Assembly: GCA_024226935.1 (NCBI GenBank)
Contig: JAAELK010000152.1
Coordinates: forward strand, 62,001 to 126,000
From: Desulfobacteraceae bacterium
Lineage (GTDB): Bacteria; Desulfobacterota; Desulfobacteria; Desulfobacterales; Desulfobacteraceae
DNA: 64,000 nucleotides
Direction of reading: 5' to 3'
The notes beneath the pieces are model-generated. The model ran no database searches. It was not told the origin of the DNA and worked only from the letters and a program-made list of their open reading frames with translations. The position numbers and the translations under genes were made by a program. Positions 15,186 through 55,489 of this stretch are shown piece after piece; positions within the stretch are counted from its first letter, which is position 1; every line of letters begins with the position of its first letter.

Positions 15186-16244
15186 TCATATAACAATGTT
15201 CAATACAGAATCATTTTCATCTTTAAAGAGGGATTCCATTAAGACATTGGGCTCGATATCCTCCGGAACAGCAGTCATGCAATCGATATTGCCGACCGCA
15301 TATTCAATCTGTTCAAACTTGATTTTCAATTCCGGAATCATGGATTTCACATAGTCACGGATCTCATCATTTTCCAGAAGAAACCGACCTGTTATTGCCT
15401 TTTTCAATATGGAAAAATCTGCCCGGACAGGCCCCATATTTGTCATATTCAAAAGGAATGAAACACGAACAACTTTAGGGTTGTCCTTGTTTTGATCCTC
15501 CTTGTTTTCCCCTGTATCAATGAGTAATTGTCCAAAACTAAGATCTGAACCTACAAATACAGGAAAAGGCATCAGATACCGGCCTGATTCCGAAGTATGG
15601 GTGTTAAGCAACTGAAAATTTTCCAGGGTGTCCGAAAAGCCTTTGACCACTTTTTCCAGAGCTCCTCCCTTGGTTGTTGCCAGAGCCAACTGGTTTAAAA
15701 GGACCCCTTTCAAATCCTGTTTTAATAATTGATCCAGGCCTGCTCTAACCGCATCCTGCCCCCGAACATCCAGAAGAGAAGCCATTTTATTTTCCCACAG
15801 CAAACCATTTTTTTCAATTAGCCGGGGCAAAAAAGAGTCATCCCTCTTACCCGATTGCAATGCAGTTTCCTGGAGAATATTTGTTACATCAGGGATTTTT
15901 GTCCGGGCAAGATCAGACAATGCATTATTTTTTGAAAGAAAACGAATCAAGGGAACCAATTGTTTTCTTCCCATGGGCTGGGATGGCTCCAATAATTTAA
16001 GTAACACCGAATCCTTTTGCTCAACCACCTTTAACTCAAGTTCTTCTCCGGGCTTAAGAAGCAGGCCGGTTTTTGCAACCACCTGCTGCCCGTTAATCAA
16101 TAATTGGGCCTTCCCATGGGGCAATAGACTCAATACCTTTGCACTGACAAGCTGATTTTTCGTAAAAACCGGAGATGAAATATCTTTTCCACTCTCTTTT
16201 TGAAGAATCAGTCCTGGTGATGAAATATGAATCTTAGAAATCAT
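15186..16244 (-). CDS. FliK-like protein of unknown role
   Basis: The product has 352 residues with no signal peptide or membrane segment. The C-terminal third (RVSFLLNMTNMGPVRADFSILKKAITGRFLLENDEIRDYVKSMIPELKIKFEQIEYAVGNIDC) resembles the FliK C-terminal domain fold pattern: a beta-strand pair, a helix, then a strand. The N-terminal part has the short beta-rich segment LSLLPHGKAQLLINGQQVVAKTGLLLKPGEELELKVV. The main FliK is encoded at 33987-35774, so this would be a second hook-length or export regulator. It is translationally coupled to the upstream gene by a four-base overlap and sits next to the FlhB-C gene, the natural partner of FliK. The assignment is moderate. Confidence 0.6.
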   Translation of the reverse strand: MISKIHISSPGLILQKESGKDISSPVFTKNQLVSAKVLSLLPHGKAQLLINGQQVVAKTGLLLKPGEELELKVVEQKDSVLLKLLEPSQPMGRKQLVPLIRFLSKNNALSDLARTKIPDVTNILQETALQSGKRDDSFLPRLIEKNGLLWENKMASLLDVRGQDAVRAGLDQLLKQDLKGVLLNQLALATTKGGALEKVVKGFSDTLENFQLLNTHTSESGRYLMPFPVFVGSDLSFGQLLIDTGENKEDQNKDNPKVVRVSFLLNMTNMGPVRADFSILKKAITGRFLLENDEIRDYVKSMIPELKIKFEQIEYAVGNIDCMTAVPEDIEPNVLMESLFKDENDSVLNIVI

Positions 16245-16825
16245 TGGCCCCGTTCCATTGCAATAAACTTTTCTTTAAGGTCAATAACCAATTGGACCTC
16301 CCCTTTGGGGATCGAAAGTTTTTCTGCAATGGTATCAACATTTACCTTCTGGTAATAGAGATCAATAATTTGATTCTGCTGGTCCAAAACATTACTTCCC
16401 CGAAAAGAAGAATGGGCTGTCTTTAAAACAGGCTCAGTCTGCTGGATTGTGTGTTGACGATCCTCTAATTTTTTCTGGAAGGCATCAGCCCTGGATAAAA
16501 GTAAATTAATACTGATAATTCTTGTATCAAGGGCATCATTCAGATCTTTGGATAATTTTCTTTTTTCTCGAATCTGTTCACCAAAACTCAAGGCCGCCTT
16601 TCTGGATTCCATGACCAAAGGTTCCAGCATATCGATGATTTCCCTGGCAGATTCAAAGGCAGTGTTTTCTTCTGGAACATCGGAAGGGACACCAACTTTA
16701 CCGTTCCCAGAGCCCAGATTCATTTGATTGACCCTTTTAACAAACAGAACCAACAAAACCACAAGGAAAATATCAACAATAAACAAAACTGCGATCAAAA
16801 ACCCAAGAGAGGCTATATATGTCAT
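16241..16825 (-). CDS. Membrane-anchored coiled-coil protein of flagellar operons (DUF2802/DUF6115-like)
   Basis: The product has 194 residues. An N-terminal membrane segment (about 3-29, LGFLIAVLFIVDIFLVVLLVLFV) is followed by a polar coiled-coil region (about 60-150). A short C-terminal helix-turn-helix-like motif comes last (DLYYQKVNVDTIAEKLSIPKGEVQLVIDLKEKF). That C-terminal motif and topology match the DUF2802/DUF6115-type proteins found in many flagellar operons of this phylum, whose function is not known. The gene overlaps both neighbours by four bases (ATGA), pointing to coupled translation. Confidence 0.65.
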   Translation of the reverse strand: MTYIASLGFLIAVLFIVDIFLVVLLVLFVKRVNQMNLGSGNGKVGVPSDVPEENTAFESAREIIDMLEPLVMESRKAALSFGEQIREKRKLSKDLNDALDTRIISINLLLSRADAFQKKLEDRQHTIQQTEPVLKTAHSSFRGSNVLDQQNQIIDLYYQKVNVDTIAEKLSIPKGEVQLVIDLKEKFIAMERGQ

Positions 16826-17139
16826 ACAGTAGTATCCAACAACCGGCCCGGGGCATCCGGATCCAGCATCCTTTCTTCGTCCTGATTTATTTTCTTTTTT
16901 TTCTTCCTGGCTGCCTTTTGTTTTAGTTCCAACTCTCTTTTTTTCTGCTTTTCTTTTTCTTCCTTGAGACGTTCAGATTCTTCGGAGTCTTGAACCGTGG
17001 ATTCTTGAATAACCTTTTGAACCTGTTGCTGGGCAACAAGCTGGTCCGGAGAGGGTTTGAGGGTACTCCCCTGATTACTCACTTCCTGGGCGATACTCGA
17101 TTGCGGAAGTATCTGATTAAGCCCTGGAATAGTTGTCAT
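16822..17139 (-). CDS. Hypothetical Lys/Glu-rich protein in the flagellar operon
   Basis: The product has 105 residues and I do not recognise a family. The first half is Gln and Ser rich. Residues of about 53-85 form a highly charged predicted helix (SERLKEEKEKQKKRELELKQ, then AARKKKKK), and the tail is short and acidic (DEERMLDPDAPGRLLD). There is no signal peptide or membrane segment. It starts 11 bases after the stop of the repeat-bearing FliL-like gene and overlaps the next gene by four bases, so it is made with them. The charge pattern suggests binding to an acidic partner, for example the acidic repeat protein encoded just upstream, but that is speculation. Confidence 0.6.
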   Translation of the reverse strand: MTTIPGLNQILPQSSIAQEVSNQGSTLKPSPDQLVAQQQVQKVIQESTVQDSEESERLKEEKEKQKKRELELKQKAARKKKKKINQDEERMLDPDAPGRLLDTTV

Positions 17140-17150
17140 AAACGCCTCCT

Positions 17151-19403
17151 CTAACCTGCCTTAAATGATTTAAAACTCACTGCCTCTATATAATTGGAAG
17201 GCAGCACCTTTTTCAAGGTAGTTTCAATCCCCCATATCAGATCAGCCTGGGTCACCTTATTTCTTTTTTCCCATACAAGATTTTCTTGAATAGACTCGTA
17301 TATTAAATCTCTGTAAAAAGAAAGGTTATCATTTATTTCATGATATGCCCTTTGATCAGAATAATCAATAGAGATATCAACGGTAACATAAGCCATATCC
17401 TTGGATAAATCAGAGGCCAGTACAACAAAATTGGTGAGAATAATATTACCGGATTTTTTTAAATCCAACACGGTACTGCTGTTAATATCCACACTGGCCA
17501 CTTCAATCTCTCTACCAGGATCTTCCACGACCACTACGGCTGGATCTTTCACGCCCACTACGGCCGGATCTTCCACGACTATCGGAACGATTTTTTTTCC
17601 AGGAAGCGGGGCAGGGGAAGTTGAAAAGAATAAAAAATACACGGAAGGGACACAAATACCCAATACAAGCATGGCAGAAGCTGTGGCAATCACAAGCTTG
17701 GATTTATACAATTTTTCCCAACGCCGACCTGCCTGCCTGGAACTAACCTCCCTGGAACCATCCTCCTCTGCCCCGACAAGTTCTTCTCCCTCCAACACGA
17801 CCTGATCACCACCATCTCCTGAATATTCTTCCTCGTCACCCTCCAAAATATCTTCATCATCAAAATCATCATCCAGATCGATATCCATATCATCGCCTGT
17901 TAAGTCTCCGAGAAGATCCTCATCTTCCTGATCAACCGCCGTCAACAGAGTATCAATATCATCCTGGGAAATGAGAATATCATCATCGCCATCCAGGAGA
18001 TCCTCACCCTCATCTGAGTCCTGGAGCAATGCATCTATATCCTCCTGGGTTACATCATCACTGTCCAAACTTCCCGTATCAAATTGATCATCATCTAAAT
18101 CGGTATTTAACAAATCTTCAAGCCCATCGGAGGAGTCGGCAAGCCCCAGATCATCATCGCCTTGCTCCTTTGATTCTGGCTCATCCAAAGAAGTGGACTC
18201 AAGATCCTCATCCAGGACCACAGGATCAGGGGTAACATCTTCCGAATCCTTTTTTATCTCAGATTCTTCAGCTTCTGGGTCAGAATCCATTGTTGCCACA
18301 GGTTCTTGGGCTTCTGGGTCAGTATCCATTGTTGTCACAGGTTCTTGGGCTTCTGGATCAGAATCCAAAACCACAGGCTCCGGCACATCTTCGGGCTTGG
18401 GTGCATTTCGGATTAACTCATCAAGGGTTTCCTGGGTAATCAGACACTGGGACACATCCAGGGCTTGCGCATCATCAATCACATAATCATCATCCCCACC
18501 ACCGGACAAATCGGGCTCGCTTCTTTCATCGGCGACAGGTTCTTCTGAAGCAAGTTCCCGGGAGGAGGTTTCATCTGGAGGGTCAACTTCATCTTCCGAA
18601 GAGGAATCATCCCCCGAAGGATTCATCAGCTGATCAATATCACTCTGGGATATCAACTCCATATCCTGATCATCCCCCATTTCCATATCTGCATCACCGG
18701 TGATAAGATTATCTATATCATCCTGGGAAACCTCTCCTGCCTCATCTTCCGCCGGATCATCTGGCCCCATGAGACCATCTATATCGTCCTGGGAAAGCTC
18801 TCCCGCCTCATCTTCCGCCGAATCATCTGGCCCCATGAGACCATCTATATCGTCCTGGGAAAGCTCTCCCGCCTCATCTTCTGCCGGATCATCCGGCCCC
18901 ATGAGACCATCAATATCGTCCTGGGAAAGCTCTCCCGCCTCATCTTCCGCCGGATCATCTGTCCCCATGAGACCATCTATATCGTCCTGGGAAAGCTCTC
19001 CTGCCTCATCTTCCGCCGGATCATCTGTCCCCATGAGACCATCTATATCGTCCTGGGAAAGCTCTCCTGCCTCATCTTCTGCCGGATCATCTGGCCCCAT
19101 GAGACCATCTATATCGTCCTGGGAAAGCTCTCCCGCCTCATCTTCCGCCGGATCATCTGTCCCCATGAGCCCATCAATATCGTCCTGGGAAAGTTCTCCC
19201 GCCTCATCTTCTGCCGGATCATCCGGCCCCATGAGACCATCTATATCGTCCTGGGAAAGTTCTCCCGCCTCATCCAAATCAGAGCTATCATCATTCCCCG
19301 TTTCAAGCTTTCCTTCCGCTTCTTCAATGGAAGATGAATCTAAAAGCTTATCAATATCATCCTGGGATATTAAACTTTCCTCTTCTAAATTTGGATCAGA
19401 CAT
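17151..19403 (-). CDS. FliL-like membrane protein with 14 FliM-type CheY-binding motifs
   Basis: The product has 750 residues. Residues 1-560 are very acidic and carry 14 copies of the LSQDDIDxLL motif found at the N-terminus of FliM, where it binds CheY-P. The copies start at about residues 11, 49, 71, 93, 115, 137, 159, 181, 203, 225, 250, 321, 451 and 477. Those at 49-224 are eight near-identical 22-residue repeats. A basic stretch (RRWEKLYKSK) and one membrane segment (about 570-593) follow. Then comes a Pro/Val-rich linker and a C-terminal FliL-like domain (about 640-750, ILTNFVVLASDLSKDMAYVTVDISI, ending YIEAVSFKSFKAG). FliL domains sit in the periplasm beside the stator. The gene follows fliA by 16 bases. 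The motif and FliL readings are from sequence; binding of CheY-P is inferred. An ordinary FliL is also encoded at 29019-29717. Confidence 0.85.
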   Translation of the reverse strand: MSDPNLEEESLISQDDIDKLLDSSSIEEAEGKLETGNDDSSDLDEAGELSQDDIDGLMGPDDPAEDEAGELSQDDIDGLMGTDDPAEDEAGELSQDDIDGLMGPDDPAEDEAGELSQDDIDGLMGTDDPAEDEAGELSQDDIDGLMGTDDPAEDEAGELSQDDIDGLMGPDDPAEDEAGELSQDDIDGLMGPDDSAEDEAGELSQDDIDGLMGPDDPAEDEAGEVSQDDIDNLITGDADMEMGDDQDMELISQSDIDQLMNPSGDDSSSEDEVDPPDETSSRELASEEPVADERSEPDLSGGGDDDYVIDDAQALDVSQCLITQETLDELIRNAPKPEDVPEPVVLDSDPEAQEPVTTMDTDPEAQEPVATMDSDPEAEESEIKKDSEDVTPDPVVLDEDLESTSLDEPESKEQGDDDLGLADSSDGLEDLLNTDLDDDQFDTGSLDSDDVTQEDIDALLQDSDEGEDLLDGDDDILISQDDIDTLLTAVDQEDEDLLGDLTGDDMDIDLDDDFDDEDILEGDEEEYSGDGGDQVVLEGEELVGAEEDGSREVSSRQAGRRWEKLYKSKLVIATASAMLVLGICVPSVYFLFFSTSPAPLPGKKIVPIVVEDPAVVGVKDPAVVVVEDPGREIEVASVDINSSTVLDLKKSGNIILTNFVVLASDLSKDMAYVTVDISIDYSDQRAYHEINDNLSFYRDLIYESIQENLVWEKRNKVTQADLIWGIETTLKKVLPSNYIEAVSFKSFKAG
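18732..19259 (-). repeat. Eight tandem 66-base repeats coding for the CheY-binding-type motif
   Basis: Eight in-frame 66-base units encode the 22-residue unit ELSQDDIDGLMG(P/T)DDPAEDEAG. The copies differ at only a few bases: the Pro/Thr position, one Pro-to-Ser change, and silent changes. A ninth, degenerate unit follows with EVSQDDIDNLI. The near-identity of the copies suggests recent expansion, and copy number may vary between strains. Confidence 0.95.
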
Positions 19404-19419
19404 GTGTGACCTCTATTAT

Positions 19420-20181
19420 TTAAATTTCATAATCGGTAAGCCTGACTTTCAATTTGATCATAACAGCAGTATGAATCTGACAAATACGAGATTCAGTCAA
19501 AGAAAGCACCTCGCCGATCTCCTTTAAGGTTAACTCATCATAATAATAAAGCGAAACCACCATCTGCTCTTTTTTTGTAAGCGTCTGGATGGTTTTAGCC
19601 AGAACAGCTTTAAGTTCCTCCCTATCAAAATGATCGGCAGGATTGTCTTTGCCCTTTATACCGGATTCAAACCTGGTTTGGGAAAAAGTATCATTTTTTT
19701 TAGATTTAATAAATTCATCAAGGCTCAACACCACAGCCCCATGAATATTTGTGAGCATATCCTGAAAGGTTTCCAGATCTATTCCCAAGGAATCACATAT
19801 TTCCAAATCCGTTGCAGGAGAACCTTTTTCATCTTCGACCTTTTTTGTTGCCTTTGTGATATCCTGGATTTTTTTGCGCATGGATCTCGAATAGGTATCC
19901 ATACTTCGCAACTCATCTAAGATAGCCCCTTTAATTCTGTACTGGGCATAGGTTTTCAAGCTGACATCTTTTGAACTATCAAATTTATCCACCGCATCAA
20001 TAAGCCCCAAAGACCCGGCCGAGATTAATTCATCAAACAAAACACTTGTGGGAAGCCTTCTGGCAAACCTGTAAGCAATATGTTTGACAAGATAAGCGTA
20101 TTCAACAATGCTTTTTTGTCGCCATTCAAGCTGCTTTTTTGTTGCCGGTTTTTTCATATAATTTTGTATATACCCCCTCAC
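19420..20181 (-). CDS. fliA: Flagellar sigma factor sigma-28 (FliA)
   Basis: The product has 253 residues, the usual length. Region 2 (YAYLVKHIAYRFARRLPTSVLFDELISAGSLGLIDAVDKFDSSKDVSLKTYAQYRIKGAILDELRSMD) is diagnostic for FliA/WhiG-type factors. Region 4 lies near the C-terminus (LTKKEQMVVSLYYYDELTLKEIGEVLSLTESRICQIHTAVMIKLK). FliA directs transcription of late flagellar and chemotaxis genes; a fitting promoter lies before flgN. The start overlaps the flhG stop by four bases. No FlgM anti-sigma factor gene is visible in the window. Confidence 0.97.
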   Translation of the reverse strand: MRGYIQNYMKKPATKKQLEWRQKSIVEYAYLVKHIAYRFARRLPTSVLFDELISAGSLGLIDAVDKFDSSKDVSLKTYAQYRIKGAILDELRSMDTYSRSMRKKIQDITKATKKVEDEKGSPATDLEICDSLGIDLETFQDMLTNIHGAVVLSLDEFIKSKKNDTFSQTRFESGIKGKDNPADHFDREELKAVLAKTIQTLTKKEQMVVSLYYYDELTLKEIGEVLSLTESRICQIHTAVMIKLKVRLTDYEI

Positions 20182-21071
20182 ATCGCAACCTGGAACACCC
20201 TGTTCATAAAAAAAGTTAAATTCCCATCCGATCTGTTTTTATCCCCATTTTTAAGGAGATTTGAAGCAATTATTTCCAATGCATTGGCAGCCTTTGAATC
20301 CGGAAATTCATCCAGCAATAACCCTCTTTTTTGCACCGCCCTTTGCAGTTGCCGGTCAAAGGGGATATACCCAGTATATTCAAGCACAACATTTTTTAAA
20401 AATTTATCCAGAGCATTACTTAAAGAAAGATATACCCGTTTGGCTTCTTTTTCAGAATCCACCATATTAACAATCAATTTAAAATACCGGGTACCGTGTT
20501 TTTGTGACATCACCTTCATCAATGCGTAGGCATCGGTAATGGAAGTGGGTTCTGTGGTGGCAACCACGATGCATTCGTCCGCTGCCGCATTAAAATACAA
20601 TACATTGGAAGAGATTCCGGCTCCGGTATCCACAAAAATAATATCTGCCTGATCGACAAGGGTCTCAAATTCACTTAACAGGGTAAGTTTTTCTCCTTCA
20701 TTCAACTGGGTCAAATCGGAGAACCCTGACCCACCAGGGACAATACCGATACCATGATGGGTTTTAACCATAACCTGATCCAACTTTTTTTCTGCAGAGA
20801 CCACGTGACGGATACTAAATTCAGGACGCAGATTAAAAACGATATCAATATTGGCAAGTCCCACATCCGCATCAATGATAACCACCCGCTTTCCCCCCTG
20901 GGTCATAGCTACAGCCAGATTTCCCACAATATTGGTTTTGCCTACCCCTCCTTTGCCGCTGGTGACGGCAAAAACCCTGGGAAATTTTTTTGTGCGGGAT
21001 GCCATACGCCCATGACTTTTTGCCAGGGCATCTGTTTTTGCAATTTGTCGAAGTCCTTTTGCCTGATCCAC
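20178..21071 (-). CDS. flhG: Flagellar number regulator FlhG (FleN), MinD-like ATPase
   Basis: The product has 297 residues. The N-terminus DQAKGLR matches the DQAxxLR motif by which FlhG stimulates the FlhF GTPase. The deviant Walker A motif SGKGGVGKT lies at residues 38-46, followed by VVIIDADVGLANIDIVF and IIFVDTGAGIS. FlhG limits flagellar number and in some bacteria restrains the FlrA/FleQ regulator; a FlrA-like gene lies at 53527. The start codon is GTG at 21071, supported by GGAGAAG upstream. It follows flhF by two bases and overlaps fliA. Confidence 0.96.
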   Translation of the reverse strand: MDQAKGLRQIAKTDALAKSHGRMASRTKKFPRVFAVTSGKGGVGKTNIVGNLAVAMTQGGKRVVIIDADVGLANIDIVFNLRPEFSIRHVVSAEKKLDQVMVKTHHGIGIVPGGSGFSDLTQLNEGEKLTLLSEFETLVDQADIIFVDTGAGISSNVLYFNAAADECIVVATTEPTSITDAYALMKVMSQKHGTRYFKLIVNMVDSEKEAKRVYLSLSNALDKFLKNVVLEYTGYIPFDRQLQRAVQKRGLLLDEFPDSKAANALEIIASNLLKNGDKNRSDGNLTFFMNRVFQVAM

Positions 21072-28021: not shown

Positions 28022-29014
28022 TTAACTCTCACAATCTGTTATTATTGTTTCTTCTATTTTAAATGCCTGAAATCCCCTTTGAACACCTATGTACCCGGTC
28101 AATTTTTCCGACCCGTCCACAAAGCAAAACAAAGGATCAGAGGCATCATTGTCCAATTGAATCACATCCCCTTCTTGCATATAAAGCACTTTTTCACCTG
28201 TTACCTCGGTCTTGCCCAACTGAATTTTAAGGGTCACTTCGGACTTGAGTATGACTTCCTTGATCATCCTGCGCCAATTGGTATCGACCTCCTCAATTTC
28301 CGCCTGAACCCCCGAGGACAATTTATTACGCATGGGCTCAATCATTGAATAGGGATAGCAAACCACCAGATTTCCTGCTGCCTGTTCCAGCTCAATTTCA
28401 AAACGGGTAACAATAACAAGATCTGTGGGCAGTACGATGGCAGTAAACTGGGGATTCATTTCCGACCTGATAAGAGATGCCTTTACAGGTTCTATGGGGG
28501 CCCAGGAAGCTTCTATATTTTTCAATACCGCAACCACGGCCTTTTGAATCATCACCTCTTCTATCCTGGTAAATTCCCTTCCTTCCACCCGGGCTTTTCC
28601 AAGGGCCTCCCCGCCGAAAAAAGTGTCTATCAAATTATAAACCAGCTGGCTTTCAAAGACTATCAATCCATGTCCCCTTAAAGGTTCCATCCTGAAAACG
28701 TGGAGACTTGTGGGCACGGGAAGACTTCTCACAAACTCTGAAAATTTCAAAGTATCAAAGGGATTGGCACTGACATCCACATTGGTCTGCAACAAAGAAG
28801 ACAAGGTGGCGCGAACTTCCCTTGAAAGTCGTTCATTGATCACATCAAAGGTGGGCATTCTCGCCCTGACCACCTTATCCTGACTTGTGAAATCATAGGC
28901 AACAATACCCCCGGCGGACTCCGGGATTTCCGGTTCTTTTTCTGTTTCAACCTCGCCTGAATCCAGACCGTCTAACAGACTGTCAACTTCATCCTGGGAT
29001 AGAATTTCACTCAT
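28022..29014 (-). CDS. fliM: Flagellar switch protein FliM
   Basis: The product has 330 residues. The N-terminus MSEILSQDEVDSLLDGL is the CheY-P binding motif (residues 3-14). The middle CheC-like domain contains ERLSREVRATLSSLLQTNVDVSA, and the C-terminal SpoA domain ends the protein (VILKSEVTLKIQLGKTEVTGEKVLYMQEGDVIQLDNDA). FliM carries the CheY-P signal into the C-ring. It lies between fliL and fliN. Its N-terminal motif is the template against which the 14 motifs of the protein at 17151-19403 can be compared. Confidence 0.98.
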   Translation of the reverse strand: MSEILSQDEVDSLLDGLDSGEVETEKEPEIPESAGGIVAYDFTSQDKVVRARMPTFDVINERLSREVRATLSSLLQTNVDVSANPFDTLKFSEFVRSLPVPTSLHVFRMEPLRGHGLIVFESQLVYNLIDTFFGGEALGKARVEGREFTRIEEVMIQKAVVAVLKNIEASWAPIEPVKASLIRSEMNPQFTAIVLPTDLVIVTRFEIELEQAAGNLVVCYPYSMIEPMRNKLSSGVQAEIEEVDTNWRRMIKEVILKSEVTLKIQLGKTEVTGEKVLYMQEGDVIQLDNDASDPLFCFVDGSEKLTGYIGVQRGFQAFKIEETIITDCES

Positions 29015-29018
29015 GGCA

Positions 29019-29717
29019 TCATCGCTGCATTATTAGATTTGTAAAATAAATATCTCGAACCATAACCTTGGGAAAAAGAGCATTAAACTTTTTGAGCAGT
29101 TCATATTTCAAGTGGATCTTGCCCTCGGGATTTCTCAACTCAAGCCATCTCATTTCCCGGACCTGCCCAATGATAATTTTGCGGATTTTTTCCTGCATTG
29201 AAACCACCTGTTCTTTATAACTAAGATCAATTAATTCCATGGAAAGATCGAGACTGACAAGCCCCATGACCGAATTTGATTTCAAACGAATACGTTCAAA
29301 GGGTTCAAGCTCAATAATATTTTCAAAGACAATGGTCGTTATAATATCGGTTTTAACCGATCCACCGGAAACCCTGGCGGCTTGTGTGACAGAAATATCA
29401 TTGGAAACATTAGAATCTTCAGGCGATCCTCCAAAAAAAAGAGATCCGACCACCCCAAGTATGACAACAAAAAAAAGTATGATCCCTGAAATTAAAACCA
29501 GTTTTTTCTTGGCACCCAGAAGTTTTTTAAGACCCCCAAGCCCCTCGGCAAAGGATTTTTTTCCCGATGATTCCTGGGATTCAACCCCATCCTTGGATTG
29601 TCCATCCGAAGTCGCTTCATCCAGAGGAGCTTCATCCAGGGATGCTTCACCCAAAGATTCATCTTCCATCTCTTCTTCCATATCATCCAGCAGATTTTCA
29701 GTCAAAATATCTCCCAC
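29019..29717 (-). CDS. fliL: Stator-associated protein FliL
   Basis: The product has 232 residues. An acidic cytoplasmic N-terminus (about 1-65, with short DEAPLDEATSD-like repeats) precedes one membrane segment (about 72-97, KLVLISGIILFFVVILGVVGSLFF) and a periplasmic FliL domain (about 120-232, ending LFPKVMVRDIYFTNLIMQR). FliL surrounds and supports the stator. The acidic N-terminus lacks LSQDDIDxLL motifs. It is the first gene of the operon leading to fliA and beyond. A sigma-54 promoter lies about 50 bases upstream of the start. Confidence 0.94.
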   Translation of the reverse strand: MGDILTENLLDDMEEEMEDESLGEASLDEAPLDEATSDGQSKDGVESQESSGKKSFAEGLGGLKKLLGAKKKLVLISGIILFFVVILGVVGSLFFGGSPEDSNVSNDISVTQAARVSGGSVKTDIITTIVFENIIELEPFERIRLKSNSVMGLVSLDLSMELIDLSYKEQVVSMQEKIRKIIIGQVREMRWLELRNPEGKIHLKYELLKKFNALFPKVMVRDIYFTNLIMQR

Positions 29718-30049: not shown

Positions 30050-32830
30050 CTATCGTTTCATCTGGATAACCGTGGACATCATATCATCAATGGTGGTAAT
30101 TGTTTTGGAGTTTGCCTGGAATCCTCTCTGGTTGACAATAAGGGAAACAAACTCTTCTGAGATATCAACATTTGACATTTCAAGGGAGTTGGGTGACAGG
30201 GTTCCAAGACCGTTTTCTCCTGGTTTATTTGTAATGGCGGAACCACTGGCAAGGGTTTCTGCAAAAAGGTTCCCCCCCTCGTTGGTCAATCCGTAATTGT
30301 TCAAAAACTTGGCAAGGCCGACCCTGAAAAGCGGAATCAACTGCCCGTTGGAATAGATACCTGTCATTATGCCGTCGGACCCCACATCAACCCCCTGGAG
30401 ATCTCCTGCGGAATATCCGTCCGCCTCCTGGAAAAGCGTTGAAGAAGAGCCGGCAACAGCAATGCTGGACAAAGAATCGTTGACAAAATTACTACCATCA
30501 TAGATGGTCCCGATATTGAGTTCAATATCCTGTTCCGTGGTGCCAAACTCTCCCCCCAGAAAATCTGCAGCAAAGGCAAAATATCCGTCGGAAGTCATAT
30601 CAGAAGTGGCAATATTGGTCCAGGCCGTGGACCCATCTATATCAAACTCGATTGTAACCTTGTAGTCATAGGGATCAGCACTGGCACCGCCTAACAGGTC
30701 CACACTAAAATCAAAGACTATATCATCATCATCGGAGGCTCCCCCGGAACCGTCAAGGTCGATAACCGCCTGGGAGCTATCTCCTTTTAGTGTTGCATCG
30801 TCATAATTTTCCGGGGGCACATCGGGGTCAATATCAAAAATCATGGTAAGCCCGCCATTGCTTGCAAGTCCGGTTATACCACCGCCTGCCGAAGTTTTCA
30901 TCTGTATATCCACGGCGGAATCGTCATCAAAATCGATGCCTATACCCGATGTGGTGGATCCCACAGTGGAAAGCACGGCATCGGGATATTCCGCAGGAGG
31001 AGTAGGATCAATTTTAAATGTAATGGTCTCGGAAGTGCCTCCAGCTGTCGACAATGCATCAAAATTGTACACAAAGGTGGATAATCCGCTGGAAGGTAAG
31101 ACGGACCCATCGCCCTCCCAGATATCAAACTGAACTTGGGTCTTATCACTGTTTACCGTATCGATGTTTATCAAGGTCTCCCCGCCACCGGAAGAAGGAG
31201 TCCAGGCTGATCCATCCCAAGACAAGGAAACCCAGGTGGTCGATCCCAAGCCATTGGTTGATGCCACAGCCCCCTGGCTTCCGGGGGGCTCAATAAGGGT
31301 AAGGGTGGGATCAACCGAAGTGGAAAAATTAGAATAATCGCTGGTAAAATCATCTGTTTTCATGGGCATGTTCCAATCCCATTCGCTGGTTCTATAGTCC
31401 ACCCTCAAAGTAACATCGTCGGATACCATATCCATAACACTGGCAGTGGTTACGCTTACAAAGGCTGTGGCCGCCTGGGAACTTCCCTGTAGTGTAATAC
31501 TGCTCAACAGGGTAGCGGCGGAGTTGGCCCTGTCGGGATTGCTCCAATACCAGGTTTCATCCACCGAATGCCAGGCGATACCAACTCCATCACTGTCGTG
31601 GGTCATCACGCTTGCATCATTGATGGTATAATCCTCCAATGTAGAAGTTTGCAAGTCGCCAAAGCTAGCTTTGGGCAAGCCAATTCCCTGGACATGGAGA
31701 TCTGCGGTCTTATTAATATCAAACCCCAGGGTATCGTTTGCCGAGGCAGAATTGACCAATTGTATTTTAATATCGGGATCGGTATCCGATGACAAGGCTA
31801 TGTGAATGTTGGTGGAGTCGGAATAAACAATCGATGCCCCGCTGTAATTATCCGGTATATACCCATCCACAAAATCCCAGGAGGTTCCGTCATACTCAAA
31901 CTCAAAGCCGTAGCCGTCCAGACCAAAGGCATCATAATCGTCAATAAAGTATTCAACGTCATCAACATCATTCACCCCGTCTGCATTAAAATTACCCAGC
32001 AAACCCGTAAGTTTTTGCATGGTCAAATCCATGATATCCCCGCCACTTTGACTGAAGGTGATATTGCCCTTGGCAAGAAGCCCCAAAGAACCGGTATTTT
32101 GTAGCAGATTTCGCTGGTCTTCGCCGGGGTTGCAGGTCACAATATAATCCCACTCTGTACCCGATTTTTTATCATAATAGATGGTAACATCATGGGTGCT
32201 TCCCAAAGAATCATAGGCCTTGATAACAGTCTGGTATTCATAGTTTGCAGAACCAATATAGGTATCCTCCCCGGAATCCCATTCATTGGCCAGGACAGCT
32301 GTATTACTGATGGCATCGGCATCCAGTCTGGTGATGGCCGTCACCTGGCTTGTTTTTTTGGGGGAATTTGTAAAGGCGCTCAGGACAATATCGCCAATGG
32401 AGCCTGTATCATCTCCTGTGTCCTCATCCAATGCCCACCCCTGGACGATATAACCTTCGGGATTTACAAGTTCTCCGTCTTTATTGAAGAAAAAATTTCC
32501 CGCCCTGGTATAATATGAATTTTCAGTACCGCTCTGGCGCATGACAAAAAAACCATCCCCGCCGATGGAAAGATCGGTGGTATTTCCCGTGGATTCAAAG
32601 GAACCCTGGGAAAAATTTTGTGAAACATCGCCCACGGCCATACCACGACCCATCTGGTCGGTACCGCCCTGGGTTGCTACACTCTCATACAAGGTATCTG
32701 CAAAGGTTGCTCTGCCTTTTTTAAACCCAACCGTGTTCAAATTGGCAATATTATTACCCACAACCTGCAGTGCATTGCCCATATTTTTCAAACCGCTGGT
32801 TCCTGTAAATAGTGAACTTGATAAAGACAT
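30050..32830 (-). CDS. flgE: Flagellar hook protein FlgE, greatly enlarged
   Basis: The product has 926 residues, about twice the usual length. The N-terminal motif (LFTGTSGLKNMGNALQVVGNNIANLNTVGFKKGRATFADTLYESV) and the C-terminal block (NSLEMSNVDISEEFVSLIVNQRGFQANSKTITTIDDMMSTVIQMKR) are standard. The middle (about 150-820) holds extra beta-rich domains. One contains an EF-hand or dockerin-like loop, NFNADGVNDVDD, at residues 280-291. FlgE builds the hook outside the cell, so the added domains would lie on the hook surface. It follows flgD by 43 bases and ends at a strong terminator. Confidence 0.95.
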   Translation of the reverse strand: MSLSSSLFTGTSGLKNMGNALQVVGNNIANLNTVGFKKGRATFADTLYESVATQGGTDQMGRGMAVGDVSQNFSQGSFESTGNTTDLSIGGDGFFVMRQSGTENSYYTRAGNFFFNKDGELVNPEGYIVQGWALDEDTGDDTGSIGDIVLSAFTNSPKKTSQVTAITRLDADAISNTAVLANEWDSGEDTYIGSANYEYQTVIKAYDSLGSTHDVTIYYDKKSGTEWDYIVTCNPGEDQRNLLQNTGSLGLLAKGNITFSQSGGDIMDLTMQKLTGLLGNFNADGVNDVDDVEYFIDDYDAFGLDGYGFEFEYDGTSWDFVDGYIPDNYSGASIVYSDSTNIHIALSSDTDPDIKIQLVNSASANDTLGFDINKTADLHVQGIGLPKASFGDLQTSTLEDYTINDASVMTHDSDGVGIAWHSVDETWYWSNPDRANSAATLLSSITLQGSSQAATAFVSVTTASVMDMVSDDVTLRVDYRTSEWDWNMPMKTDDFTSDYSNFSTSVDPTLTLIEPPGSQGAVASTNGLGSTTWVSLSWDGSAWTPSSGGGETLINIDTVNSDKTQVQFDIWEGDGSVLPSSGLSTFVYNFDALSTAGGTSETITFKIDPTPPAEYPDAVLSTVGSTTSGIGIDFDDDSAVDIQMKTSAGGGITGLASNGGLTMIFDIDPDVPPENYDDATLKGDSSQAVIDLDGSGGASDDDDIVFDFSVDLLGGASADPYDYKVTIEFDIDGSTAWTNIATSDMTSDGYFAFAADFLGGEFGTTEQDIELNIGTIYDGSNFVNDSLSSIAVAGSSSTLFQEADGYSAGDLQGVDVGSDGIMTGIYSNGQLIPLFRVGLAKFLNNYGLTNEGGNLFAETLASGSAITNKPGENGLGTLSPNSLEMSNVDISEEFVSLIVNQRGFQANSKTITTIDDMMSTVIQMKR

Positions 32831-53541: not shown

Positions 53542-54591
53542 TTCCATTTCAGGTTTTATATGCATTTTTTTTAACTTCTCAACCAGAGTAGTTCGGTTTA
53601 TTTTAAGCATTTCGGCTGCCCTGGCCTTAACCCACCCGCTTTCATTCAAGGCATGGGAAATCAGACTTCGCTGATAAAGATCAACCGCCTCATTAAAACC
53701 GATACCATTATTAAATATAGAAGAGACCGAAGGTATAGTATGATGGGAAGATACACTCGTTATACACTCCGGCAGATCGTGAACCTGGATATCAACTTCC
53801 TCCACAAGAACAGATAACCGTTCAACCATATTTTCAAGTTCCCGAATATTGCCGGGCCATTCATAATGCATTAAAGCCTGCTTAGCCTGGTCCGAAAACT
53901 GTTTAATCTGGTAATCATCCCTGCGTACCACCATATTATCCTGAAAATATCTGGTCAGGGGAAAGATATCCTCCCTTCGCTCCCTCAGGGGCAGGATATG
54001 CAGAGGAATAACATTGAGTCGATAATAAAGGTCCTCTCGAAATCCCCCTTTTTGAATGGCCTCAACAAGGTCTTTGTTGGTGGCTGAAATTACCCGAATA
54101 TCCACAGCAATGGTCTGGGTTCCGCCCACCCGTTCAAATTTGCGTTCCTGGATGGCCCGCAACAACTTCACCTGCAAATCCGGGCTCATATCTCCTATCT
54201 CATCCAGAAACATAGTGCCTTTATCTGCGATTTCAAACCGGCCTATCCTGGAACGATGGGCACCGGTGAAGGCCCCTTTTTCATGGCCAAACAATTCACT
54301 TTCAAGCAACTCACCCGGGATAGCACCACAATTGATAATCACCATGGGACCATCCCTCCGGCCGCTATTTCTATGAATAGCTCGTGCAATCAGCTCTTTA
54401 CCGGTACCACTTTCTCCGGTAATCAAAACAGAAGAATCTGATTTCGCAACCTTGCGGGCTGTATCTAAAACCCTGAATAAACCTTTGCTTTCTCCGGCAA
54501 TACCACTTCTATCAAATCCTTTATTGCCATCCCCCTCATCCTGCACCACAGGCTTTTCCGACGCCATTGCCGCCATGGAAACAACACTCAT
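53527..54591 (-). CDS. FlrA-like sigma-54 activator without a receiver domain
   Basis: The product has 354 residues. A short N-terminus (about 35 residues) leads straight into the AAA+ domain with GESGTGKE (near residue 58), [13 protein letters not shown], and the Walker B-like GTMFLDEIGD. A Fis-type helix-turn-helix ends the protein (VKARAAEMLKINRTTLVEKLKKM). The FleQ-type N-terminal domain of Vibrio and Pseudomonas master regulators is missing. The protein would act without phosphorylation of its own. It overlaps cheY by four bases, so CheY and the activator are made together. The TPR/FlrC-like operon with its sigma-54 site lies directly downstream. Confidence 0.9.
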   Translation of the reverse strand: MSVVSMAAMASEKPVVQDEGDGNKGFDRSGIAGESKGLFRVLDTARKVAKSDSSVLITGESGTGKELIARAIHRNSGRRDGPMVIINCGAIPGELLESELFGHEKGAFTGAHRSRIGRFEIADKGTMFLDEIGDMSPDLQVKLLRAIQERKFERVGGTQTIAVDIRVISATNKDLVEAIQKGGFREDLYYRLNVIPLHILPLRERREDIFPLTRYFQDNMVVRRDDYQIKQFSDQAKQALMHYEWPGNIRELENMVERLSVLVEEVDIQVHDLPECITSVSSHHTIPSVSSIFNNGIGFNEAVDLYQRSLISHALNESGWVKARAAEMLKINRTTLVEKLKKMHIKPEMETPIF

Positions 54592-54968
54592 CTTAAGATC
54601 TTTGAAAGTTTGTCAGAGATGGCCTCTGCCGTAAACGGCTTAACCACATAGTTGGACACTCCTGCCTGAACCGCTTCAATAACATTCTGTTTCTGGGCCT
54701 CCGCTGTTACCATCAAAAAAGGTTTTTTTGCATACTTGGAATCTGCACGTACTTTCTTCAAAAGCTCAAGACCGGTCATTTTAGGCATATTCCAATCCGA
54801 TATGATCAAATCAATTTCTTGATTTTCCAAAATATCCCAGGCTGTTGTACCATCATCAGCTTCCACAAGATTTTTAAAACCAAGTTGTTTTAAAATATTC
54901 TTAAGAATACGGCGCATGGTAGCAAAATCGTCAACAATCAAAACCTTGATGGATGTGTCCATTGCCAC
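54588..54968 (-). CDS. cheY: Chemotaxis response regulator CheY
   Basis: The product has 126 residues, a single receiver domain with all key residues: VLIVDDFATMRRIL (acid pair), IISDWNMPKMTGLELLK (phosphoacceptor Asp), VTAEA (Thr) and YVVKPF (Lys). The sequence is closest to true CheY proteins (DWNMP). CheY-P binds the FliM N-terminal motif LSQDEVDSLL to switch rotation. The same motif occurs 14 times in the protein at 17151-19403. The gene lies between cheX and the FlrA-like gene. Confidence 0.96.
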   Translation of the reverse strand: MAMDTSIKVLIVDDFATMRRILKNILKQLGFKNLVEADDGTTAWDILENQEIDLIISDWNMPKMTGLELLKKVRADSKYAKKPFLMVTAEAQKQNVIEAVQAGVSNYVVKPFTAEAISDKLSKILR

Positions 54969-55000: not shown

Positions 55001-55462
55001 TTATCTTTCAAAGCATACTTCAATCGTAAAATCACCACCATCGGTGCTAAAAGGGATTGCAATCTTGGGCCCTTCTGAGTAATGACGAATACTATGATTC
55101 CGACCGGTCACGACAGAAGGAATGGCTGCCTTAAACTCCTTACCTATAACTTCTAATTCTTTTCTTGCCTGGCCGGAAATCATATTGGTCAATTCTCCTA
55201 CGGCGTCGGTAATATCCTCATTAAGGGTTTCCATGGTTTCACCAAACATATTGGAAACAATGGCCAAGATACATTTTTCTTCGAAGGTAACTGCAATAGT
55301 ACCATTAGCGACCCCTGTCAATCCAAGGATTCCGGTAACATCCCCGACAGCAACATTGTCTTTTTTCACATAGGGTTTACCTACAGTCACCGTGATAAAA
55401 GCCATGGTTTCCAACACACTTAATGTTGCATTTATGAACGGATTGATTAAGGTCACATCCAT
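55001..55462 (-). CDS. cheX: CheX-type CheY-P phosphatase
   Basis: The product has 153 residues from the ATG at 55462. It shows the CheC/CheX fold pattern MDVTLINPFINATLSVLETMAF, then GVANGTIAVTFEEKCILAIVSNMFGE. The active-site helix ITDAVGELTNMISGQARKEL carries the conserved Glu and Asn of the ExxN motif. CheX dephosphorylates CheY-P; cheY is the next gene, 32 bases away. An upstream in-frame TTG at 55477 is less likely, since GGGGGAG sits before the ATG. Confidence 0.93.
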   Translation of the reverse strand: MDVTLINPFINATLSVLETMAFITVTVGKPYVKKDNVAVGDVTGILGLTGVANGTIAVTFEEKCILAIVSNMFGETMETLNEDITDAVGELTNMISGQARKELEVIGKEFKAAIPSVVTGRNHSIRHYSEGPKIAIPFSTDGGDFTIEVCFER

Positions 55463-55489
55463 CGTGGCTCCCCCCAAACACAGCTGCTG

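Follow-up and report, generated by a model that had tools for sequence, protein, structure and literature searches.

A conserved second FliL of Desulfobacterales with a repeated FliM-type motif: a candidate docking array for CheY-P

What would a flagellar membrane protein do with fourteen copies of a CheY-binding motif that FliM, on the C-ring, carries once? The question is raised by a gene in a 64,000-nucleotide stretch of the genome of a Desulfobacteraceae bacterium (the window, by which the whole of that stretch is meant). We call its product FliL2, which is our own name for a conserved second FliL. In the usual view, CheY-P diffuses freely to the motor and acts there at FliM and FliN. Searches of the open-licence PMC literature brought up no paper on a FliL with CheY-docking motifs, as judged by titles and the starts of abstracts. 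FliL2 is a real and conserved novelty at the level of the order, built from known parts, and CheY-P is the most likely ligand of the array, with FlhG as the main rival. The features on which this account is based are collected in Table 1.

Table 1. Positions in the window of FliL2, of its parts and of the genes discussed with it
Feature	Position	Strand	Basis
FliL2 gene (750 aa: acidic motif-bearing tail, presumably cytoplasmic; one membrane segment; FliL-fold domain, presumably periplasmic)	17151..19403	minus	
Stretch with all 14 FliM-type motifs, residues 12-487	17943..19370	minus	regular expression
Eight 22-residue (66-bp) tandem units, LSQDDIDGLMG[PT]DD[PS]AEDEAGE	18732..19259	minus	TRF and codon comparison
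Predicted membrane segment, residues ~570-595, basic residues N-terminal of the segment	17619..17696	minus	hydropathy; AlphaFold2 helix 563-593
FliL-fold domain, residues ~645-750	17154..17471	minus	AlphaFold2 pLDDT; PDB matches to H. pylori and Vibrio FliL
FliA, directly upstream of FliL2	19420..20181	minus	Pfam sigma-70 regions
FlhG (MinD-like ATPase), rival ligand	20178..21071	minus	P-loop GKGGVGKT; conserved neighbour
p105 (16822-17139) and DUF6115 protein (16241-16825), downstream of FliL2	16241..17139	minus	Pfam; conserved neighbours
FliM N-terminal motif ILSQDEVDSLL, FliM residues 4-14	28973..29005	minus	FliM by Pfam
Canonical FliL gene beside fliM, motif-free	29019..29717	minus	Pfam FliL 47.6 bits; regular expression
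CheY, best candidate ligand	54588..54968	minus	Pfam Response_reg; PDB CheY alignments
CheX, CheY-P phosphatase	55001..55477	minus	Pfam CheX 96.8 bits

The FliL2 protein and its gene slot

The regular expression used for the FliM-type motif, [hydrophobic][ST]QxxhDxhh, finds the fourteen copies of FliL2 at residues 12, 49, 71, 93, 115, 137, 159, 181, 203, 225, 251, 322, 451 and 478. The 22-residue tandem units correspond to copies 2 to 9, and at the DNA level TRF reports the 66-bp array at 18711-19274, with 8.5 copies and 94% matches. Residues 1-570 are rich in acidic residues (D+E 38%, K+R 2.8%). When residues 1-560 were shuffled 5000 times, a mean of 0.0036 motifs was obtained with a maximum of one, and these shuffles, together with the strict genome pattern described below, rule out chance or composition as the source of the motifs. 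A plus-strand open reading frame overlapping the array (18700-19527) is a mirror of the repeat and was discarded as a gene candidate. The protein has one hydrophobic segment (570-595), preceded by R/K, with its most hydrophobic 19-residue window beginning at residue 570; the topology is read from charge, the basic residues ahead of the segment suggesting that the N-terminus lies inside. Modelled alone with AlphaFold2, residues 1-260 are disordered (pTM 0.13), with ten short helices of low confidence at 10 of the 11 motifs. The original prediction had described fourteen FliM-type motifs in an acidic region of about 560 residues, eight near-perfect tandem repeats of 22 residues among them, and one membrane segment after this region. 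The first point is confirmed by the regular expression, the shuffles and the composition, the second by TRF and the comparison of the units, and the third is supported by the hydropathy and by the AlphaFold2 helix.

The C-terminal domain is FliL-like, as judged from its model. In the AlphaFold2 prediction (24 sequences) the pLDDT exceeds 90 in eight of the ten ten-residue blocks of residues 650-749, and the domain matches the FliL of H. pylori (7sgn; Z 12.0, rmsd 2.7, 96 residues) and that of Vibrio (Z 11.2 and 11.1 for 6ahp and 6ahq), the best PDB row other than FliL being a prohibitin with a Z of 8.9. With Foldseek, six of the first seven matches are chains of H. pylori FliL and the other is a chain of a C. 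jejuni motor scaffold. SPFH domains, dihydroneopterin aldolase and the other PDB rows under FliL were set aside as sharing the general fold. As for sequence profiles, Pfam FliL (PF03748) gives no row for FliL2 of the window at E up to 1 and NCBIfam FliL gives no match; two orthologues match the latter weakly, far under the cut-off, and the canonical FliL of the window likewise remains under the NCBIfam cut-offs. The orthologue in genome G016 scores 26.8 bits against PF03748 in the genome search and 21.7 with hmmscan, for a cut-off of 24.6. Since the fold matches FliL but the Pfam cut-off is missed, we use the label FliL-like and claim no Pfam membership. The FliL-like domain that had been predicted is thus upheld by the fold match and weakly favoured by the orthologue profiles, but not by Pfam on FliL2 itself. 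FliL2 shares with FliL (PF03748; stator-associated, stomatin-like) the C-terminal fold, the location in a flagellar cluster and, by prediction, a single membrane segment; it differs in its long tail (about 560 residues), which holds 14 FliM motifs, and in the missing Pfam match, and a canonical FliL is encoded separately in the window. Outside the window, the same genome encodes a lipoprotein-like ORF of 287 aa (G000:C153:56278-56565; L159:1829-2692) that matches Pfam FliL at 31.4 bits, and several relatives have frames of about 300 aa that match likewise.

The gene order of the slot is flhF-flhG-fliA-FliL2-p105-DUF6115-fliK-flhB', a neighbourhood that supports the earlier assignment of FliL2 to a flagellar cluster. 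CheY and CheX had also been placed in the same locus, and the Pfam Response_reg and CheX matches bear out both names. In nearly all loci reaching far enough, flhG lies two genes upstream of FliL2; the name FlhG for the product in the window is our assignment. The p105 protein is small and lysine-rich, without a convincing family match, and its gene stands directly downstream of many motif-bearing FliL2 genes; it was found in only one of the 15 FliL2 loci with zero motifs that are described below. The window further encodes a flagellar hook-type protein of 926 aa (30050-32830) with matches to Flg_bb_rod, FlgE_D2 and Flg_bbr_C.

Specificity, distribution and origin of the motif

In the organism's own genome of 6.09 Mb, the strict DNA pattern S/T-Q-[DE]-[DE]-I-D-x-h-h has 13 matches, for 0 in the reversed control. 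Twelve of them lie inside the FliL2 gene, and the remaining one is the start of what we take to be the glycine-cleavage protein GcvPA. This start (L044:1483-2814; HTQEDIDAMLAKTG) resembles the motif, probably by chance. A broader pattern gives 25 matches, of which 12 are in FliL2, one in FliM and 12 elsewhere, for 4 in the reversed control, so that the outside matches somewhat exceed the control. Four of these twelve are in frames of 13-31 codons and one is within a receiver domain; no motility protein was recognised among them by eye. A motif common in unrelated non-motility proteins would have counted against the original prediction; in its strict form, with GcvPA as the single outside match, the motif is not common among unrelated proteins of the own genome.

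The search with FliL2 residues 560-750 gave matches in 34 of 58 genomes, including the own genome. All 29 loci of relatives drawn from it (L003-L031) carry motifs, at least three in 28 and one in the remaining locus; contig ends truncate some of them, and in L015 the FliL frame does not run on from the frame with the motifs. The same architecture beside fliA, which the original prediction had proposed to seek in relatives, is therefore present. In the four further families matched by the same search (G035, G043, G047 and G051), strict motifs number 5, 13, 12 and 5. A scan of named genomes, from Desulfobacula, Desulfobacter, Desulfotignum, Desulfospira and records named only Desulfobacteraceae, Desulfobacterales, Deltaproteobacteria or Proteobacteria, yielded 22 FliL2 loci, all with 3-9 motifs; three of them start at a contig edge and several belong to the same genomes as the L003-L031 set. 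At the level of the class, a profile search (A3) matched 108 of 291 genomes, the weak matches including ordinary FliL genes. We read 38 further matches from this search, hand-chosen mainly from other families. Thirty-four have at least one conserved neighbour, and the four with none (L216, L218, L223 and L225) are probably other FliL genes. Among the 34, at least three motifs are found in 14, one or two by the loose regular expression in five (two of these being cut by contig ends) and none in 15 (the tail of one, L206, being partly masked). FliL2 relatives thus carry from 0 to about 17 motifs. When 297 genomes of the phylum were scanned with the strict pattern, four or more matches occurred only in the own genome (12), in G054 (5), where they belong to another FliL2, and in G188 (4); this sample has only a dozen genomes from the order of FliL2 and speaks mainly for the rest of the phylum. 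From these searches, FliL2 is a conserved second FliL of Desulfobacterales, whose motif tails recur across many families of this sulfate-reducing order. The modelled fold, the motif array, the conservation and the gene slot together form the firm part of our account.

Two other loci were encountered in these surveys. In G188, a protein of 307 aa (L123:2295-3218) that lacks a strong membrane segment contains two strict motifs (SQDDIDALI and SQEEIDALL), the degenerate motifs SQEDIDAYL, NDIDALI and EHIDALL, and a further C-terminal part; its neighbours within 5.5 kb do not look flagellar by eye, and it is possibly a second, unrelated multi-motif protein. In G046 (L156:5492-7266), fliA is followed by a motif-free FliL of 190 aa (PF03748, 37.8 bits), which is itself preceded by a CheY-receiver protein whose C-terminal part is rich in repeats (TPR-like by eye).

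The motif itself was characterised on a set of 299 strict motifs from 46 non-identical FliL2 proteins. Position +4, which is free in the regular expression, is D in 252 of them, position +5 (I/L/V/M allowed) is I in 266, and position +6 (D/E allowed) is D in 288. The spacing between motifs varies, with a median of 36 residues. It could be argued that the array is an acidic spacer of no selective importance, produced by tandem duplication and with an incidental likeness to FliM; the copy number, from 1 to 14 strict motifs per protein across the 46 proteins, and the young age of the repeat at the DNA level, given its 94% matches, are both consistent with such an origin. We nevertheless consider this extremely improbable. 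The motifs are kept while the linkers change across families, and this applies to the non-tandem copies too. In the window, the ten motif codons of the eight tandem units show synonymous variation only (codons 6 and 8), and the two replacement sites both fall in the linker (codon 12, P/T; codon 15, P/S). The near confinement of the strict pattern to the FliL2 gene argues in the same direction.

At the evolutionary level, a FliA tree of 51 rows, quickly made, of moderate support and with some long branches flagged, places 35 motif-bearing rows on one side of one branch and 16 zero-motif rows on the other (SH-aLRT 88). Since all motif-bearing forms are on one side of this branch, the motif would probably have arisen in a single gain and multiplied afterwards. 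Four forms have one or two motifs; they are dispersed among the motif-rich rows, which looks like reduction.

CheY, FlhG and other receivers as candidate partners

FliL2 shares with the N-terminal CheY-binding motif of FliM (EIDAL) the form [LIV][ST]Q-acidic-acidic-I-D-x-L-[LM]. The FliM of the window (28022-29014) begins MSEILSQDEVDSLL, and its motif reads EVDSLL, as it does in all 29 readable ones of the 30 FliM loci, among them that of the own genome. The array motif DIDxL[LM] consistently differs from this FliM motif of the same genomes, DID standing against EVD in the organism itself. The prediction that both are of one class holds for the class, but this difference had not been noted; the array may be tuned differently from the FliM motif or may have another partner. 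The main FliM of FliL2-bearing genomes has EVD except in G563 (EVN), and EID is found in the second FliM of G550 and in the FliM of three genomes without FliL2; no co-variation of the FliM and array motifs, taken as a partner test, was seen. On the side of the ligand, the CheY of the window is identical to the Salmonella CheY of 2che at A90, K92, Y106, V108, F111, T112, K119 and K122, and among the other contacts I95 and A99 are replaced by V and K91 by Q; all these positions are FliM contacts of CheY. The genome thus encodes a CheY that keeps the face bound by FliM, and comparison, including that of the genomes discussed below, suggests CheY as a partner of the array. The N-terminus of FliM is reported to be used by both CheY and FlhG (PMC6946799; PMC12826062). 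Bacillus FliY and some FliN resemble FliL2 in that the motif sits on a flagellar protein that is not FliM: EIDAL motifs, full or degenerate, are reported as sporadic in FliN and FliY (PMC6946799), and FliY carries EIDAL together with CheC-like domains (PMC12826062). Unlike FliY, FliL2 carries the motif in many copies, and Pfam finds no phosphatase domain in it.

The size of the array was compared with the presence of chemotaxis genes. All 28 chosen genomes with at least three motifs have both CheA and a CheY at least 71% identical to that of the window. Over 41 rows of the tree, CheY and CheA are present together in all 21 rows with at least three motifs, and in 13 of the 20 rows with fewer (Fisher p 0.0034, kinship ignored). 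After correction for kinship there are five independent pairs, three or four of which go the same way and none the opposite way (sign p 0.125-0.25, not significant). The test leaves aside 10 of the 51 tree rows, which have no chemotaxis data, as well as G549 and G356, neither of which is represented in the FliA tree; G356 shows at least one motif beside a contig edge and matched neither CheY, at 1e-15, nor FliM. G010, with one strict motif, is outside the CheY/CheA scoring, and rows L088 and L092 were scored through G003 and G014, taken as the same genomes. The CheY of G476, although marked with a stop, was scored as intact: its residues 3-125 align free of stops, which must place the marked one immediately ahead of the start codon. 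Scoring it as broken gives p 0.020.

Several genomes with small arrays are instructive individually. G036 seems, from its sequence, to have lost chemotaxis: its CheY homologue (L261:2168-2539; 67% identical) has two in-frame stops inside the domain, and in this genome, which is 92% complete, no CheA was found, nor any chemoreceptor at E<=1e-10. It keeps the flagellar cluster, and its FliL2 has 2 motifs. G478 has a FliL2 with 1 motif and no close CheY, and is nonetheless endowed with CheA and three receptors, and G501 has 1 strict motif (2 loose) despite a CheY of 77% identity, CheA and 33 chemoreceptors. G518, 84% complete, was scored without CheA, and G394, closely related to it, carries six motifs along with CheA; given the completeness of G036 and G518, absent genes may be gaps. 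As 13 scored rows with fewer than three motifs carry both CheY and CheA, chemotactic motors manage without the array.

These same genomes bear on the main rival explanation, which the original prediction had left out of account. In it the array docks FlhG, the MinD-like ATPase acting on the C-ring by way of the FliM N-terminus while the ring is assembled, and FliL2 would serve to store or count FlhG, thereby controlling the assembly of the C-ring or the number of flagella. FlhG interacts with FliM/N through the FliM N-terminus according to a review (PMC12826062), and its gene is the near-constant neighbour two genes upstream. Moreover, the FliM motif is kept in genomes without a close CheY, two of which (G457 and G495) are also without CheA and chemoreceptors, so that this motif class has another use. 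Such retention is expected if FlhG needs the motif, but it leaves the array unexplained. FlhG is a neighbour of tails with 0 and of tails with 17 motifs alike, and the size of the array therefore does not follow FlhG. In G036, FlhG is full-length and the FliM motif is intact, yet the array is down to 2 motifs, and among the 28 tested genomes none has three or more motifs without also having CheY and CheA. We accordingly regard FlhG as a rather unlikely ligand. It can also be asked whether the motifs bind receiver-domain proteins other than the CheY of the flagellar cluster. With the CheY query, 11 matches at E<=1e-15 turn up in the own genome, and the difference between the array and FliM motifs would be compatible with such a ligand; however, only the cluster CheY is close, the next in this genome (G000) having 43% identity among the matches listed, and this explanation appears to us very improbable.

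A proposed store of CheY-P at the stator

We propose that the tail of FliL2 is a multivalent docking array for CheY-P, which would pool CheY-P at the stator, beside the C-ring, and we give this proposal an even chance. The C-terminal domain would lie in the periplasm and probably join or replace FliL at the stator, and the cytoplasmic N-terminal tail would be a disordered tether with many FliM-type CheY-docking peptides. Phosphorylated CheY would bind the motifs singly, each motif being taken up as a short helix. Each stator would then be ringed by a dense, weakly binding pool of CheY-P adjoining the C-ring; this pool would raise the local concentration of CheY-P and its rebinding to FliM and damp fluctuations, and the signal may come to depend on the number of engaged stators. 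In this scheme, we infer the topology, the dependence on phosphorylation, the location at the stator and the effect on switching.

Fragments of FliL crystallise as a ten-membered ring, and in other bacteria rings of FliL are reported to surround and stabilise stators (PMC9195833). In E. coli, more CheY-P is reported to bind the motor as the number of stators rises (PMC8440544). Considering these two observations, a stator-borne store of CheY-P is a plausible extension. If FliL2 forms such rings around stators, docking sites would be of the order of 140 per stator in this organism (10 x 14). A bolder form of the proposal, which we advance only tentatively, is that in this order of bacteria the second FliL acts as a multivalent capture array for CheY-P and couples load sensing to switching through local CheY-P; the recruitment of stators would carry along tens to hundreds of FliM-like docking sites. 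The link between stator number and CheY-P binding is common to the E. coli motor and to the FliL2 proposal, but in E. coli it is explained by force on FliM/FliN, whereas a second binding protein is proposed here (PMC8440544).

The stator-stabilising rings of FliL (PMC9195833), and the same domain and motif evidence, would also suit an array that binds CheY-P to brake or release stator units, with no effect through FliM. Beyond the FliL fold, no sequence feature couples the tail to the stator, and the stator-dependent binding of CheY-P in E. coli is put down to torque on FliM/FliN (PMC8440544). We judge this alternative unlikely.

If the proposed store of CheY-P at the stator is real, a stator-side protein would add a local store or relay between the chemosensory signal and the motor. 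How load and switching are linked would become testable through one deletable tail. FliL2 would in addition give a clear example of a signalling motif spread by tandem duplication.
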